A stretch of 64,000 nucleotides of DNA from Synechococcus sp. ROS8604 (GTDB lineage: Bacteria > Cyanobacteriota > Cyanobacteriia > PCC-6307 > Cyanobiaceae): contig NZ_CP047946.1 in assembly GCF_014279655.1 (NCBI RefSeq), forward strand, positions 558,001 through 622,000, read 5' to 3'. This document shows positions 22,427 to 28,602 of the stretch, piece after piece. How positions within the stretch are numbered: position 1 is the first letter of the stretch; each line of letters starts with the position of its first letter. The notes beneath the pieces were generated by a model. The model ran no database searches. It was not told the origin of the DNA and worked only from the letters and a program-made list of their open reading frames with translations. Made by a program: the position numbers and the translations under genes.

Positions 22427-22497
22427 GGCGGCATGGCCAAGTGGTAAGGCAGAGGATTGCAAATCCTTTATCCCCAGTTCGAATCTGGGTGCCGCCT
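22427..22497 (+). tRNA. tRNA-Cys (anticodon GCA)
   Basis: Acceptor GGCGGCA pairs with TGCCGCC, D arm GCC/GGC, anticodon stem GAGGA/TCCTT with loop TTGCAAA (anticodon GCA), T arm CCCAG/CTGGG with TTCGAAT, discriminator T. It runs antisense to the start region of the LpxB-like gene. Its 3' half is the integration site of the element that follows. Confidence 0.96.
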
Positions 22498-22499
22498 TT
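22467..22499 (+). repeat. attL: 33-bp att core within tRNA-Cys 3' end
   Basis: Identical over all 33 bp to 28570-28602. It runs from the 3' side of the anticodon stem through the T arm and acceptor to 2 bp past the discriminator. After insertion the tRNA is left complete. Confidence 0.93.
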
Positions 22500-22582: not shown

Positions 22583-22782
22583 CCGTCTGGTTCCTTCCAG
22601 TCTCCCAAACGTCCGAGAACTTACCTGCTTCACCTCTGCTGAGGGGGGTTCTGAACGCAAGTGGTTTTGCGTGAAACCGCTGCCCCTCTGTCCCAAAACC
22701 CAAGAGTTGCCAGGACGCCAAAAACTGCCGTCACAACAGGGGTTTTGCCGTGTTCAAAACTCTGTACGGTTGATTTGTGCTG

Positions 22783-22799
22783 AAAACCCACTGGGTTTT
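22783..22799 (+). promoter_or_regulatory. Small inverted repeat directly before the serine recombinase start
   Basis: AAAACCC-ACT-GGGTTTT, a 7-bp perfect inverted repeat ending 4 bp before the ATG at 22804. It occupies the place of a ribosome binding site, so it may be an operator or a translation-control hairpin. Function is inference. Confidence 0.4.
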
Positions 22800-22803
22800 G
22801 ACC

Positions 22804-23382
22804 ATGTCGCGATCAATCGGGTACGCCCGCTGTTCCACCACCCACCAAGACACCGCTGCTCAGACCGCTGAACTGAAGGGTGCGGGATGCGTGCAGGTGT
22901 TTGCCGAGAAGGTGTCCTCTCGTGCACCGCTGGAGAAACGTCACCAGTTGCGTGCCTGCCTGGAGACGCTGCAGAAGGGAGATGAACTGGTAATTTCCAA
23001 ACTTGACCGCTTGGGACGGTCCCAGGTGGAGGTGATCAACCGTCTTGCTGACCTGCAGGAGAAGGGAATTCACATCAGGACCCTGGATGGACTGATCAAC
23101 ACCAGAGGACTGGGACGACTCGCCCCTTTGGTGATTGGACTGCTGACGGGTCTTTCTGAGGTTGAGAGGTCATTGATCCAAGAACGCACCAGAGAGTCCG
23201 TTGAACACCGCAGGAAGACGGGTGGAAACCTTGGTGGGAGACCCAAGACCTCAGAGAAGAAAGAACGTCTTGTGCTGCGTCTGAGGAGTGAGGGGGAGTC
23301 CTACAGGTCGATTCGTGATCAAACAGGGATCTCTGTATCAACGATTCAACGAATCCTCCAGAACCAGGAGGTCGCGTCATGA
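22804..23382 (+). CDS. Small serine recombinase (resolvase/invertase family)
   Basis: 192 aa from the ATG at 22804. Catalytic N-domain: IGYARCSTTHQDTAAQ with the nucleophilic Ser near residue 11, LVISKLDRLGRS (conserved D and R residues) and ERSLIQERTRES at the dimer helix. C-terminal Hin-type helix-turn-helix: SYRSIRDQTGISVSTIQRIL. The layout and length match Tn3/Hin-type resolvases. In an element that already has a tyrosine recombinase it may resolve dimers or invert a segment. Stop overlaps the start of the next small gene (ATGA at 23379-23382), so they are coupled. Confidence 0.93.
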   Translation: MSRSIGYARCSTTHQDTAAQTAELKGAGCVQVFAEKVSSRAPLEKRHQLRACLETLQKGDELVISKLDRLGRSQVEVINRLADLQEKGIHIRTLDGLINTRGLGRLAPLVIGLLTGLSEVERSLIQERTRESVEHRRKTGGNLGGRPKTSEKKERLVLRLRSEGESYRSIRDQTGISVSTIQRILQNQEVAS

Positions 23383-23552: not shown

Positions 23553-23955
23553 AATAAAAATCAAATAGTTAATCTATAAAGAGTGTATAGGGATCCTATT
23601 TGCCGAAATCAGTTTAAAAATATTGCTGCCTTCTGCGCCTCTTGTTGCCTAACCCTGTAAACACAAAGACTCGCTTGACCTGTATGAATAATCTCTGTAT
23701 AATTGCTGAACACAAAGACAAAGATATTTAGACCCTCTGCAGAGGTAGAGATCGTCAAACTTTGCTTTAAGAGTCTCTGGAGTCCATTGGATTCCCCAAG
23801 GGACTCGGTGTACCCAGAGATAACCCTTAAATCTCAGAACTATTCCATAAGACCAGTAATACCAATGAGTTACCCCAAGTCAACCAAAACAAATCACCAG
23901 AGAAGAACCGATCGAAGAGAGGTTCATTCACGACCAACGGGAGTGAATGAGTCAA
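23553..23955. other. AT-rich non-coding stretch upstream of the hairpin and HUH-like gene
   Basis: 403 bp with low GC compared with the rest of the window and no convincing long gene. An open frame starting at 23865 (ATG, 42 codons, very basic, ending at the TGA 23991-23993) would overlap the TTG start of the next gene in a TTGA junction; it might be a coupled leader peptide but cannot be supported further. The stretch is a plausible site for a promoter or replication origin. Confidence 0.5.
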
Positions 23956-23998
23956 GATCCTCAAGGACGTTTCTGAATCAGAAACGTCCTTGAGGATC
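23956..23998 (+). promoter_or_regulatory. Perfect 20-bp hairpin at the start of the HUH-like gene
   Basis: Positions 23956-23975 pair without a mismatch with 23979-23998, loop AAT. There is no T-tract after it, so it is not a simple terminator. It contains the TTG start codon (23990) of the following gene. Candidate roles are a nick site or single-strand origin for the HUH protein, or a translation switch. Confidence 0.75.
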
Positions 23999-24544
23999 CA
24001 TCAAGAGACCAGTTCTCATCCAAAGGTCCTCCAGGAACTGATCAGAGATCAATGGGAGAACAATTTCCAACCCCAGTGGTTCATCACATTGCTATGGAAC
24101 GATCTCCCCACTCAATTCGATGTAGTTAAGGGTCATGCAGGAACATTTAGGAACGTCTTTTTGACCCAACTCATGGATTGCAATTCACCCACCAGGATTC
24201 CTGATCCTCCAGAACGACCATCCTTGATCTTTATGCAGGAGAGGAAACCAGTGATCGTTAAAGGACGACAGATCACTGCATTCCACACCCATCTCCATCT
24301 GGGTGCTCTACCTGACCCTCTGAACCACCTCTGGTACCTGGATCACCTGATTCATCAGAAGGTTTCTCCAAAGGTCCGGAAACTCCTCAAGACCACCTCA
24401 GAGGGGAACAGGGGTGTGGTGATCAAACCCTGGAACTGGGATCACCATGCGTTCTACAACCTGAAGGATTACTACTCCTACAGACACCATCAGGATCCTG
24501 ATTTGGTTTTGGACTATGAGAATTCAGACCTTCTCTTTAACTAA
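23990..24544 (+). CDS. Putative HUH-type replication/relaxase protein (Rep-like)
   Basis: 184 aa. Three stretches match the order of Rep HUH endonuclease motifs: motif I-like WFITLLWND (residues ~29-37), motif II-like FHTHLHLGA (His-x-His-x-His, ~98-106) and motif III-like AFYNLKDYYSY (Tyr...Lys...Tyr, ~154-164). Proteins of this class nick at a hairpin and become covalently bound through Tyr. The adjacent 43-nt hairpin and the CopG-like gene downstream fit a small rolling-circle-plasmid-like module. The only start after the upstream stop is TTG at 23990. Assignment is by motif reading only; similarity could be spurious. Confidence 0.55.
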   Translation: MRIHQETSSHPKVLQELIRDQWENNFQPQWFITLLWNDLPTQFDVVKGHAGTFRNVFLTQLMDCNSPTRIPDPPERPSLIFMQERKPVIVKGRQITAFHTHLHLGALPDPLNHLWYLDHLIHQKVSPKVRKLLKTTSEGNRGVVIKPWNWDHHAFYNLKDYYSYRHHQDPDLVLDYENSDLLFN

Positions 24545-24561
24545 TCACTTTTACAAACATT

Positions 24562-24807
24562 ATGAAACTCAAATTCTACGACCAGATCCCTTCTGCGCAA
24601 ATTACCTTGTCAATAAGAGAACTGGTGATTCTTCAGTCACTTGCATCAAAACTTTTGACAGAAGACAAAATTTATGAATAAGCACTCCCTACTCTTTGCA
24701 ATGAAGAGGATTCAGAATCGATTGTGGAGTTCGCTAAACAGTTAAGAGAAGAACTCGACACCTTGGTTGATGAGTCAGTTCTCACTCTTCCGTCAAAGAA
24801 TCTTTAA
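24562..24807 (+). pseudogene. Small gene interrupted by one in-frame TAA (39 + 41 codons)
   Basis: ATG at 24562 opens MKLKFYDQIPSAQITLSIRE..., reaches TAA at 24679-24681, then the same frame continues for 41 sense codons (…EEDSESIVEFAKQLREELDT…) to TAA at 24805-24807. Both halves have coherent helical character, so this is either a recently inactivated ~81-aa gene or one that needs readthrough. Product unknown. Confidence 0.5.
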
Positions 24808-24816
24808 ATAGAATAA

Positions 24817-24847
24817 ATAGAGATGTCCCCACCAGAGACATCTCTAT
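24817..24847 (+). promoter_or_regulatory. 11-bp perfect hairpin overlapping the next start codon
   Basis: ATAGAGATGTC (24817-24827) pairs perfectly with GACATCTCTAT (24837-24847); the ATG of the following gene is at 24846-24848, so its first two bases lie in the 3' arm. Probably a translation control element or terminator-like structure. Confidence 0.65.
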
Positions 24848-25031
24848 GAAGACCCTTGCCAAACCAGATCAAAGGAATATCAATCTGTTCTTTGGGAAAA
24901 GGAATCAGACCACTCTGCAAAAGTTTGATTCCTTATACCATCAACTCAGACGATCCAGAACGGGTACTCTGGATTTCTTGATCACTCACTATGAATGGTT
25001 CCAGAACAATCGTAGTGAGGTGGTCAGATGA
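24846..25031 (+). CDS. 61-aa protein of the element, unknown function
   Basis: Basic, helical (GKRNQTTLQKFDSLYHQLRRSRTGTLDFLITHYEWF). The pattern RxQTTLQKFDSL... might be a small DNA-binding fold. The stop overlaps the start of the ribbon-helix-helix-like gene (ATGA at 25028-25031), so both are translated together, as in antitoxin/toxin or copy-control pairs. No homologue is recognised. Confidence 0.55.
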   Translation: MKTLAKPDQRNINLFFGKRNQTTLQKFDSLYHQLRRSRTGTLDFLITHYEWFQNNRSEVVR

Positions 25032-25174
25032 ATATCACCATTCGGTTGACCAAGGTTGAGCACGAGATGCTGAAGGAACTTCAGAAGAGGGACAAGAGGT
25101 ACAAGAAGGGATTGGAGGAAAAGTTTATGTCTGAAATGATTCAAGATTTCACCCTTCTGAGAAAGAAGCGGTGA
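25028..25174 (+). CDS. Ribbon-helix-helix-like (CopG/Arc-type) small protein
   Basis: 48 aa: the N-terminal strand MNITIRLTKVE followed by helices HEMLKELQKRDKRYKKGLEEKFMSEMIQD matches the ribbon-helix-helix layout. CopG-type repressors control Rep synthesis in rolling-circle plasmids, consistent with the HUH-like gene 0.5 kb upstream. The last 26 bp overlap the 3' end of the minus-strand TPR gene. Function is inference. Confidence 0.55.
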   Translation: MNITIRLTKVEHEMLKELQKRDKRYKKGLEEKFMSEMIQDFTLLRKKR

Positions 25175-26405
25175 TTCCTTCAGGCAATTCATTGTAGATC
25201 TCAAATCCACCTTTATTCAACAACTGAATACAATCAGATTCACTTGCGCCGCCTAGGCACAGTTTAATCAGAGGAGAAAGGATTTTGCTTCTTTCTAGAT
25301 CACTATTACAACAGTGTCTGGTCAGTTTAATGGGGATGCATCGACGCTCTTTGATTGGATTCTCAAGAAAACTCTTATATTGCGACAGGTCATGCTTTGT
25401 ATCCCCAGAAAATACAAATTCTTGGGAACCATGTTTGTCGACATTTTTTAGAGACTTGTATTTCCATTCTTTAATGCTGTTTATCCTCTTCGCGACACGT
25501 TTATTTCGTCTCATTGTGGCAAAAAGTGATGGATTGTAGTCAGGGAAAACGGTATATTGAGGTGAAAATGCAATGATTGTCTTTGCATTAAGCAAAGGTC
25601 CCAGGAATAATGCGCTGGTGGCATTGCTGCTAACTCCAATGGCGACCACTTCAGAGAAAGATCCGAATAATGCAAAAAAATCCTTTAGGACATCCGTATC
25701 AATAGAATTTGACCAGGTCTCTTCTTTGTCAATAATCCTGAAAACATTGGCATTTTCAAAATCTGTATCTACAAAAGTACTTTCTAGATTAAGAAGTGCA
25801 CCCCCACAATTGACTATGCACGTCGTGCTTTCTTGAACATGTTTGGCGAGTATGCGCAAAAATTCATCTTCGTAGAGGAGAATGAACTGATTTTGCTTTT
25901 TTCTGAATCCCTTTTGAACTTTTATTTTTGCTTCCTCAAGCCGTTTGAGTGCAACGAGATCTTGTGCTGCACGTCCATAACCATTCCAGTTGTCTGGATG
26001 GTGAGTGATTAAGAGTTCAGAATATTCAAGAGATTTTTCACGATCATTAGATGCACGGAAGACATCCGTTGCAATCGTCAGGAGGTTGACCTGGTTAGGG
26101 AGTTTCTCCAGTCCTGATTGAATTTGTTTCTGTGCTTCTTCAAACCGCTTGAGTGCAACTAGTTCTTGTGCTGCACGACCATATCCATTCCAGTTGTCTG
26201 GATGGTGAGTGATTAGAAGTTCAGAATATTCAAGAGATTTCTCACGATCACCTGATGCACGGTAGATATTAGTTGCAATGGTGAGGAGATTGATCTGGTT
26301 AGGGAGTTTTTCTAGACCTATCGCCAGTTCTTCTTTTGCTGCGCTGAGATCTTTGGATTTCAGTAGTTTTTTGATTTTATCTGCGAACGTCTTCCAGTCG
26401 CTCAT
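25149..26405 (-). CDS. TPR protein with degenerate alpha/beta-hydrolase-like C-terminal domain (cargo)
   Basis: 418 aa. The first ~170 residues are tetratricopeptide-like, with two nearly identical 68-residue units (each LEKLPNQ(I/V)NLLTIAT... to EYSELLITHHPDNWNGYGRAAQ). The C-terminal part has IVNCGGALLNLES, VVAIGVSSNATSALFLGPLL and TIIAFSPQYTVFPDYNP, recalling a serine-hydrolase nucleophile elbow (GVSSN instead of GxSxG), as in TPR/polysaccharide-associated proteins of marine cyanobacteria. Likely cargo acting on the cell surface or glycans (inference). An 11-G tract lies 7 bp upstream of the ATG. Confidence 0.7.
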   Translation of the reverse strand: MSDWKTFADKIKKLLKSKDLSAAKEELAIGLEKLPNQINLLTIATNIYRASGDREKSLEYSELLITHHPDNWNGYGRAAQELVALKRFEEAQKQIQSGLEKLPNQVNLLTIATDVFRASNDREKSLEYSELLITHHPDNWNGYGRAAQDLVALKRLEEAKIKVQKGFRKKQNQFILLYEDEFLRILAKHVQESTTCIVNCGGALLNLESTFVDTDFENANVFRIIDKEETWSNSIDTDVLKDFFALFGSFSEVVAIGVSSNATSALFLGPLLNAKTIIAFSPQYTVFPDYNPSLFATMRRNKRVAKRINSIKEWKYKSLKNVDKHGSQEFVFSGDTKHDLSQYKSFLENPIKERRCIPIKLTRHCCNSDLERSKILSPLIKLCLGGASESDCIQLLNKGGFEIYNELPEGITASFSEG

Positions 26406-26865: not shown

Positions 26866-27030
26866 TCATGAATCGTGAACGTATGGATCTCGCATCCAGT
26901 CGGTCCCGGTCGCTCCTTTGAGTTGTCCACGACCAGTTGCGAGTGCGTCAGTCGCTCTCTTCGCGTCGTAGTGGAAGTAGTGCTCCTGGACGTACTGGAT
27001 TGAGGTGTCGCAGTTGTTGCTTGAGTGCTG
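26866..27030 (-). pseudogene. Remnant of the C-terminus of a second tyrosine recombinase
   Basis: The minus-strand frame reads NNCDTSIQYVQEHYFHYDAKRATDAL... and ends in a stop at 26866-26868. The segment TSIQYVQEHYFHYD resembles the catalytic Tyr region of phage-type integrases (GTSxxMIExHYxHL). No R or HxxR box exists upstream in this frame, because there the neighbouring integrase gene is read instead. It is therefore a decayed fragment, likely from an earlier integration. Confidence 0.5.
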
Positions 27031-27031
27031 A

Positions 27032-28438
27032 TTAATAGTCCTCGTCTGTTCTCTTGACCATCGTCCACTTCCCTTCTTCAATCGTTTGACGCGATTCGTG
27101 TGCTGTCCGCTCTGCATCGATGTATCTCAGGTATGTGTTCCTGAGTTGGTCTGGACTGGTGTGACCGTTGTCCGCGAAAGAGTTGATCTTTGGAGGGATT
27201 GCTAATCCAGGGTCTTCTTCAAGGGTTAAACGAAATGCCGTGTGTCGAATGGTTGTCCATTTTCTGCCTGATGCAGGGAACTCGTTTTCGAAGGTTTTCG
27301 CCATTACGTGCTTAAGAAGGAAGTTCAGAGTCTTCAGGACATGACTGTCTGCCGGATTGCCTTCTGGTCTCTCGATCTGAGGAAGAACCAGGTATCCAGA
27401 TGGTTTCCTCCTATGGAGTCGTTCCCAAAATCTGAATCCATCTTTTCTGTAGTGGGTCGTTTGATGAATTGGACGATCCTTTTTAGTTGTCTCCAAATTG
27501 CAGACAACAGTTTGGTTCCCCTGGTCCCTGAACCACTCGCTCTTGATTCGGTACATGTCTTCTGCTCGCAGGTAAAAGAACCACTCCAAGAGAAGTGCGT
27601 CATAGAGATCGCCCCAGTTGCGTTGGTTCAGTCGATTGCTCTTGCTCCACTCCAACTCCCAGTACTCGTCTGGATCCAGGAGTTGTCTCGCTGAGTCGAG
27701 AGACAAGTCCACCACTGCTGCCAGGAGTTGGTCCCACTGCTTTTGTGTCAGATGCTGAACCTGTTTGGTCTGCTTGCTGATCGCAGGGAATCTTGGAAAT
27801 GCATGTCCAGGGAAGTCGTCCTCTGCCAGTGCCAGGAGTTTGTTGATCAGGGTCTTCTGCTGCCCCTTCATCCCACTGCCATTGGATCCGCCGCTTCCAC
27901 GTGCACGTCTCTCCATAAGAGAGAAGTAGTCCTTGAAGTCCTGACTCGTAATCAGGTCAACGCTTCTGGACGCCCATGGTTGGTGACGGATGCCGTATTC
28001 GCTTGCTTCCCATTTCAGGGACTCCTCTCGCTTCCACCGCTTGAAATTGCGTTGGGTCTCCCGAGTTCGGGATTCAGACGTGAAATACCGCTCCCAATAC
28101 TCGCCAAGTGAGTTCTTGCTCTGTTCTTCCTGTAAGTCCAGGACTGCTTTGCTTTCGTCCTGCCACTTCTGGAACAGGGTGACCGACCTCTTTGCCGCCT
28201 CGTGAGGGTCTTCTGTCCCCGTGGTCCTCTGGATGGTCAGACGCTTCCCTAGACCTCCCTTAGATCGCCCCTGATGGGGTCTTGGGTCGTCGCTGGGGTC
28301 TGGTAACCACTCTGCGTACAGAACCCGTGTATGGGTCTGTCGCTTGATCCTGAGGTTCTGCGGGTACGAACCACGCACTCCAAAAACCTTCGACACGTTC
28401 AGGGTCGTCCAGTTCTCGGGGAGTGATGCTTTGCCCAC
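27032..28438 (-). CDS. int: Tyrosine recombinase (integrase) of the tRNA-Cys element
   Basis: 468 aa. Arg box YLRAEDMYRIKSEW (~residues 290-300), His-x-x-Arg box TTIRHTAFRL (~390-400) and the C-terminal FADNGHTSPDQLRNTYLRYI with the presumed nucleophilic Tyr. Residues ~100-200 look like the SAM-like core-binding domain and the N-terminal 90 residues like an arm-binding region. It reads away from attR, starting 130 bp from it, with the arm-like repeats in between. GTG start at 28438. It is long for the family because of the N-terminal extension. Confidence 0.9.
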   Translation of the reverse strand: MGKASLPENWTTLNVSKVFGVRGSYPQNLRIKRQTHTRVLYAEWLPDPSDDPRPHQGRSKGGLGKRLTIQRTTGTEDPHEAAKRSVTLFQKWQDESKAVLDLQEEQSKNSLGEYWERYFTSESRTRETQRNFKRWKREESLKWEASEYGIRHQPWASRSVDLITSQDFKDYFSLMERRARGSGGSNGSGMKGQQKTLINKLLALAEDDFPGHAFPRFPAISKQTKQVQHLTQKQWDQLLAAVVDLSLDSARQLLDPDEYWELEWSKSNRLNQRNWGDLYDALLLEWFFYLRAEDMYRIKSEWFRDQGNQTVVCNLETTKKDRPIHQTTHYRKDGFRFWERLHRRKPSGYLVLPQIERPEGNPADSHVLKTLNFLLKHVMAKTFENEFPASGRKWTTIRHTAFRLTLEEDPGLAIPPKINSFADNGHTSPDQLRNTYLRYIDAERTAHESRQTIEEGKWTMVKRTDEDY

Positions 28439-28569: not shown

Positions 28570-28602
28570 TTTATCCCCAGTTCGAATCTGGGTGCCGCCT
28601 TT
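28570..28602 (+). repeat. attR: second 33-bp att core
   Basis: Exact copy of 22467-22499 without the rest of a tRNA. It marks the right end of the element; the chromosome resumes at 28603. Confidence 0.93.

Follow-up and report, generated by a model that had tools for sequence, protein, structure and literature searches.

Islands integrated at tRNA genes are known from marine picocyanobacteria, tycheposons being one example. They typically combine a tRNA target and a direct repeat with a small mobile cargo, in genomes of the Synechococcus type. HUH proteins, in turn, often nick DNA at hairpins. Single-domain HUH Reps consist of a small stand-alone endonuclease domain encoded in a mobile element, with motif I, the HUH (HxH) motif II and the YxxK motif III in this order (PMC6668415). 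Hairpins can also arise by mutation. In E. coli, the conversion of a quasipalindrome into a more perfect inverted repeat is an established signature of template switching (PMC7202029), and a single template switch can produce a perfect stem (PMC8794818). We describe here a locus of Synechococcus sp. ROS8604 that shares features with these systems. The window, i.e. the whole stretch of DNA analyzed, is 64 kb long and spans positions 558001-622000 of the genome, and all positions below refer to it.

The hairpin at this locus, GATCCTCAAGGACGTTTCTGA-A-TCAGAAACGTCCTTGAGGATC, consists of two 21-nt arms (23956-23976 and 23978-23998) that are 100% complementary around a 1-nt centre. When folded, it forms 20 bp around a 3-nt loop. 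The predicted folding energy was -23.3 kcal/mol for the DNA form, far beyond chance (z = -10.0), and -35.3 kcal/mol for the RNA form. Among perfect inverted repeats with arms of at least 14 nt and a spacer of at most 10 nt, it was the sole case in the window, and a 400-kb sample of this genome contained only two perfect inverted repeats with arms of at least 13 nt (18 and 17 nt). The description of this element as a 43-nt mismatch-free hairpin without a T-tract was therefore confirmed. No terminator-like T-tract was found at the hairpin, ruling out that it is a terminator. A repeated or mobile palindrome was ruled out as well, because no second copy was present in 119 genomes even when up to 3 mismatches were allowed. 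At the hairpin itself, an Rfam search returned only chance matches of microRNA type.

The origin of the hairpin was suggested by an alignment of the region in the window with the corresponding regions of L002, L010, L013, L009 and L006. Homologous sequence was present at both arms in these relatives. Relatives had no stable hairpin at the site (folding z of -1.3, -0.7, 0.1, 0.4 and 0.3, versus -10.0 in the window). Insertion of a 43-nt palindromic element was thus ruled out, also because the net gain in the window is only 2 nt. The 5' arm of the window is close to that of the relatives. The 3' arm reads AAACGTCCTTGAGGATC in the window and AAACTCCAAAGGATC or AAACTTGAAAGGATC in the relatives, and its window version matches the reverse complement of the 5' arm exactly. 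When a single reverse-complement copy event was modelled, the number of differences to the window dropped from 14 to 7 for L009, from 13 to 7 for L002, and from 14 to 9 for L010. The clustered changes thus match a copy of the other arm, with one event removing 5-7 edits. A further difference from the relatives, T23970 in the 5' arm, requires an ordinary substitution.

Because the sequence of the 3' arm was replaced by the reverse complement of the 5' arm, with a net gain of 2 nt, we read the hairpin as a template-switch mutation. With a probability of roughly 0.74, it is the scar of a lineage-specific quasipalindrome template switch in the HUH initiator gene of a mobile island, and this switch frameshifted the gene. 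The event itself is most likely, with the ancestral imperfect repeat approximated by the relatives. In the proposed course of events, replication would have been briefly templated on the other arm, so that an inverted repeat in the part of the gene encoding the N-terminus changed from imperfect to perfect. Copying of the arm would have added 2 nt and shifted the reading frame; the old frame now ends at the TGA at 23991-23993, stranding the catalytic domain behind the TTG at 23990. The likeness to E. coli thyA and lacZ reporters and to phage T4 (PMC7202029) is close: an imperfect repeat turned perfect, clustered substitutions accompanied by a small indel that opposite-arm copying would explain, and a frameshift. 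In contrast to these assays, the window presents a natural difference between species-level relatives, in which the direct ancestor is approximated.

The consequences for the gene were apparent from the reading frames. An open frame extends from an upstream ATG (equivalent to window position 23865) through the hairpin site in L010, L002, L009 and L018, and the relatives start at this ATG, about 42 codons before the TTG at 23990. In the window, the upstream frame ends at the TGA because of the +2 nt shift. The frame that follows, from TTG 23990 in the 3' arm to 24544, encodes 184 aa. Since its 184 codons are stop-free, the catalytic domain shows no visible decay, and its length matches that of family members without an N-terminal part (178-187 aa). 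The original prediction had placed the start of the protein inside the hairpin. A TTG is indeed located there, but it is merely the mechanical first start after the stop, whereas the relatives use the upstream ATG. With the domain left behind this TTG, the gene in the window probably has no activity, or weak expression by reinitiation at most. A product reinitiated at the TTGA is conceivable, because the 184 codons are stop-free and match the full length of the short members.

The protein contains the strings FITLLW, HTHLHLG and YNLKDYY. Homologues were found in 30 of 400 genomes searched within the same taxonomic family, and class-wide genome samples gave matches solely inside that family. 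In an alignment of 17 diverse homologues, all from this picocyanobacterial family, only six positions were invariant: P28, H99, H101, Y156, K159 and D175. H99 and H101 form motif II; the residue between them is Thr or Ser and not bulky hydrophobic, and the surrounding FHTHLHL pattern fits. Y156 and K159 form the YxxK of motif III with the catalytic tyrosine; motif III of Reps has been described as YxxK and motif II as HUH (PMC6668415). A WFIT-type strand that may correspond to motif I is present in most members with variable residues, and aligns at low probability with the FLTLTY of Microviridae. Compared by profile with nine Rep proteins of Microviridae, motifs I and II aligned in register, although the match was weak (probability 5.6%, P = 0.007). 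Where measurable, dN/dS between copies was 0.13-0.38, indicating that the family is under purifying selection.

A profile search against known families, as proposed with the original prediction, gave a divided answer. The window protein matched no Pfam, NCBIfam or other curated family above cut-off, including PHROG 3584 and PF23343. Two family members matched PHROG 3584, "replication initiation protein" (L035, E = 6e-6; L031, E = 3.8e-4), over residues 6-162, the whole domain, and one member weakly matched Pfam PF23343 REP_ORF2-G2P (0.023). PDB profile searches found nothing meaningful. In phage, plasmid and IMG/VR collections, the window protein had no match, and the family members found one distant relative, L051. 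The links to PHROG 3584 and PF23343 run through few members. Like the single-domain HUH Reps, the family has a putative motif I, HxH and YxxK in order in a small stand-alone domain within a mobile element. It differs from them in lying outside the Pfam and NCBIfam models, in residing in picocyanobacterial chromosomal islands, and in being unmatched in the searched plasmid and phage collections. Within this known enzyme class, the family seems to form a branch that has not been catalogued. By analogy with HUH initiators, an intact protein would introduce a single-strand nick into the excised circle of the element and stay bound via Tyr156, with a metal ion bound by HxH, and the nick would prime rolling-circle replication or transfer.

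Several other explanations deserve consideration. The protein might not be a nuclease and its HUH-like strings might be due to chance, as the lack of a Pfam or NCBIfam match above cut-off could indicate. We regard this as quite improbable, because four of the six invariant columns are H, H, Y and K in the HUH arrangement and the PHROG replication initiation match spans the whole domain. The claim that HUH-like motifs occur in the right order was borne out by the same columns, and at the level of motifs the protein is very probably a HUH-type (rolling-circle) initiator. A sequencing or assembly artefact at the quasipalindrome, hiding an open frame in the real genome, is a somewhat smaller concern still. 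Inverted repeats are difficult sequence, the change is present in one genome only, and the 184-aa frame is otherwise intact; but the genome is a single contig of 2.88 Mb with 99.97% completeness, and the change corresponds precisely to a reverse-complement copy, a known biological signature.

Two functional roles had been proposed for the hairpin. As the double-strand origin or nick site of the HUH protein, carried within its own gene, it would fit with the adjacency of the two features and with the frequent nicking of hairpins by HUH proteins. This link was rejected because no homologue has the hairpin, the site is coding in the relatives, and the hairpin coincides with the +2-nt frameshift. 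The hairpin was thus not conserved alongside the initiator gene, neither in the folds of the relatives nor across the 119 genomes, and the conserved non-coding leader upstream (23707-23864) is a better origin candidate. We therefore consider a self-contained origin at the hairpin very improbable. The same three observations leave an evolved start-codon switch unsupported. In such a switch, ribosomes on the 42-codon frame would melt the hairpin, stop at the TGA (23991-23993) and restart at the overlapping TTG (23990-23992), so that synthesis of the domain would depend on translation of the leader peptide. The TTGA stop-start overlap is present in the sequence, the RNA hairpin is very stable, and the remaining 184 aa equal in length the complete members that have always lacked an N-terminal part. 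However, the arrangement is unique to the window copy and hence not selected across the family, no ribosome-binding site is visible before the TTG, and the neighbouring gene is broken too. Start-codon control is accordingly unlikely, if less so than the other alternatives. Quite improbable, again, is the more far-reaching idea that a one-step template switch created a regulated split gene, in which a ribosome on the leader frame would melt the 20-bp hairpin and hand over at the TTGA to a complete HUH domain, and that the HUH family, together with the structured leader, would constitute an undescribed group of picocyanobacterial-island initiators.

The region upstream of the gene contains a sigma-70-like promoter (Table 1), a type of site that shuffled sequence yields 1.8 times on average. 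The leader that follows it had a mean column identity of 83% in 5 relatives and 32 consensus pairs, 3 of which were changed on both sides. It is probably structured, and it may be the likely nicking place instead of the hairpin, although the evidence is suggestive only. Within the leader, the motif GGGACTCGGTGTACC is located at 23800-23814. In both sub-groups of the family, ACTCGGTG or ACTCGGTC is located some 50-110 nt ahead of the start (at 23800-23814 in the window, and upstream of the gene in L033 and L051), a possible recognition or nick site. Weighed as a family-wide nick site, ACTCGGTG was found in only 7 of 23 upstream regions. A leader hairpin, GAGTCTCTGGAGTCC...GGGACTC, varies in sequence, yet its pairing is kept in most relatives; the leader may be a regulatory RNA or an origin. 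An HDV-like or other ribozyme, suspected in the leader by eye, had no Rfam match and was not supported. Four exact 19-mer matches of the leader in IMG/VR were also discarded, since they belong to unrelated sequence without a HUH gene.

Judging from its boundaries, the HUH gene is in a 6.1-kb tRNA-integrated mobile island: 33-nt repeats of the tRNA-Cys 3' end lie at both ends, 6103 bp apart. The predicted element is composed of a serine recombinase, a 57-aa ORF, the structured leader, the HUH gene and small ORFs, and is present in a number of picocyanobacterial genomes. The recombinase adjoins the HUH gene in 6 of the 10 relatives searched. The tRNA target, the direct repeat, the small mobile cargo and the Synechococcus-type genome are shared with tRNA-integrated islands such as tycheposons. 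In contrast to islands of the tycheposon type, the window island carries a serine recombinase and a HUH gene, and its 468-aa ORF is an integrase only by position, with no identifying match in Pfam, PHROG or PDB. In L008, a Phage_integrase gene adjoins the HUH gene. Beside the 468-aa ORF, about 150 nt (26869-27020) are 84-92% identical in the islands of L007, L010, L012 and L013, the cargo of which otherwise differs. Two 204-nt tandem copies with 80% identity were noted at 25876-26283, within a TPR-containing ORF of 418 aa on the minus strand.

Nine other genomes have HUH copies that are truncated or interrupted. Together with the TAA stop in the gene that follows the HUH gene in the window (24562), these copies indicate that decay is common, and the window island is probably decaying. 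The copies in L005, L011 and L012 are 5'-truncated near residues 91-108; each retains the 3' part and the following small ORFs, and each is fused to unrelated upstream sequence. In L002 (G120), a TAG stop directly follows YNLKD (motif III) in a copy that is otherwise 80% identical, reflecting decay or recent inactivation.

Table 1. Features of the island and the HUH gene region (window coordinates).
Feature	Position	Strand	Basis
tRNA-Cys (GCA), integration target of the island	22427..22497	+	ARAGORN; Rfam tRNA, 67 bits
33-bp direct repeat, tRNA-Cys 3' end, attL-like	22467..22499	+	identical to 28570-28602
Serine recombinase (resolvase/invertase), 201-aa mechanical ORF	22777..23382	+	Pfam Resolvase, 1.8e-30; PHROG 125 DNA invertase, 1e-48
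Small conserved ORF, 57 aa	23379..23552	+	also in L010, 4382-4555; no PHROG match
Sigma-70-like promoter, TTGACC-17-TATAAT	23675..23703	+	11/12 matches; similar sites visible in relatives
Conserved leader of HUH gene, candidate regulatory RNA or origin	23707..23864	+	identity and consensus fold
Original 5' part of HUH gene (MSYPKSTK...FLNQKRP)	23865..23993	+	ATG 23865; TGA 23991-23993 inside hairpin; homologues open here
Perfect hairpin, probable rewritten quasipalindrome, net +2 nt	23956..23998		alignment, folding, genome sampling
HUH-like endonuclease domain, 184 codons; WFITLLW (codons 30-36), HTH (H99, H101), YNLK (Y156, K159)	23990..24544	+	ORF, conservation, PHROG
Downstream small gene (MKLKFYDQIPS...), broken	24562..24807	+	TAA where UW105 (L011) has TAT
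Small conserved ORF, 61 aa, after HUH gene in relatives	24846..25031	+	comparison
Small ORF, possibly ribbon-helix-helix-like (by eye)	25031..25174	+	similar small ORFs after HUH gene in L008 and L051; no Pfam match
468-aa ORF adjoining right repeat, integrase by position only	27032..28438	-	position
33-bp direct repeat, attR-like, far end of the island	28570..28602	+	identical to 22467-22499

The combination of a perfect hairpin with HUH motifs is a striking but misleading coincidence, in which two ordinary parts are overlaid. The hairpin would be a clear case of a quasipalindrome mutation that arose naturally in a cyanobacterium, ordinary as a mutation and modestly interesting. The protein points to a HUH-type initiator family that has no name in curated protein libraries and resides in islands of marine Synechococcus and its relatives; intact homologues exist, for example in AG-679-C18 (L010).
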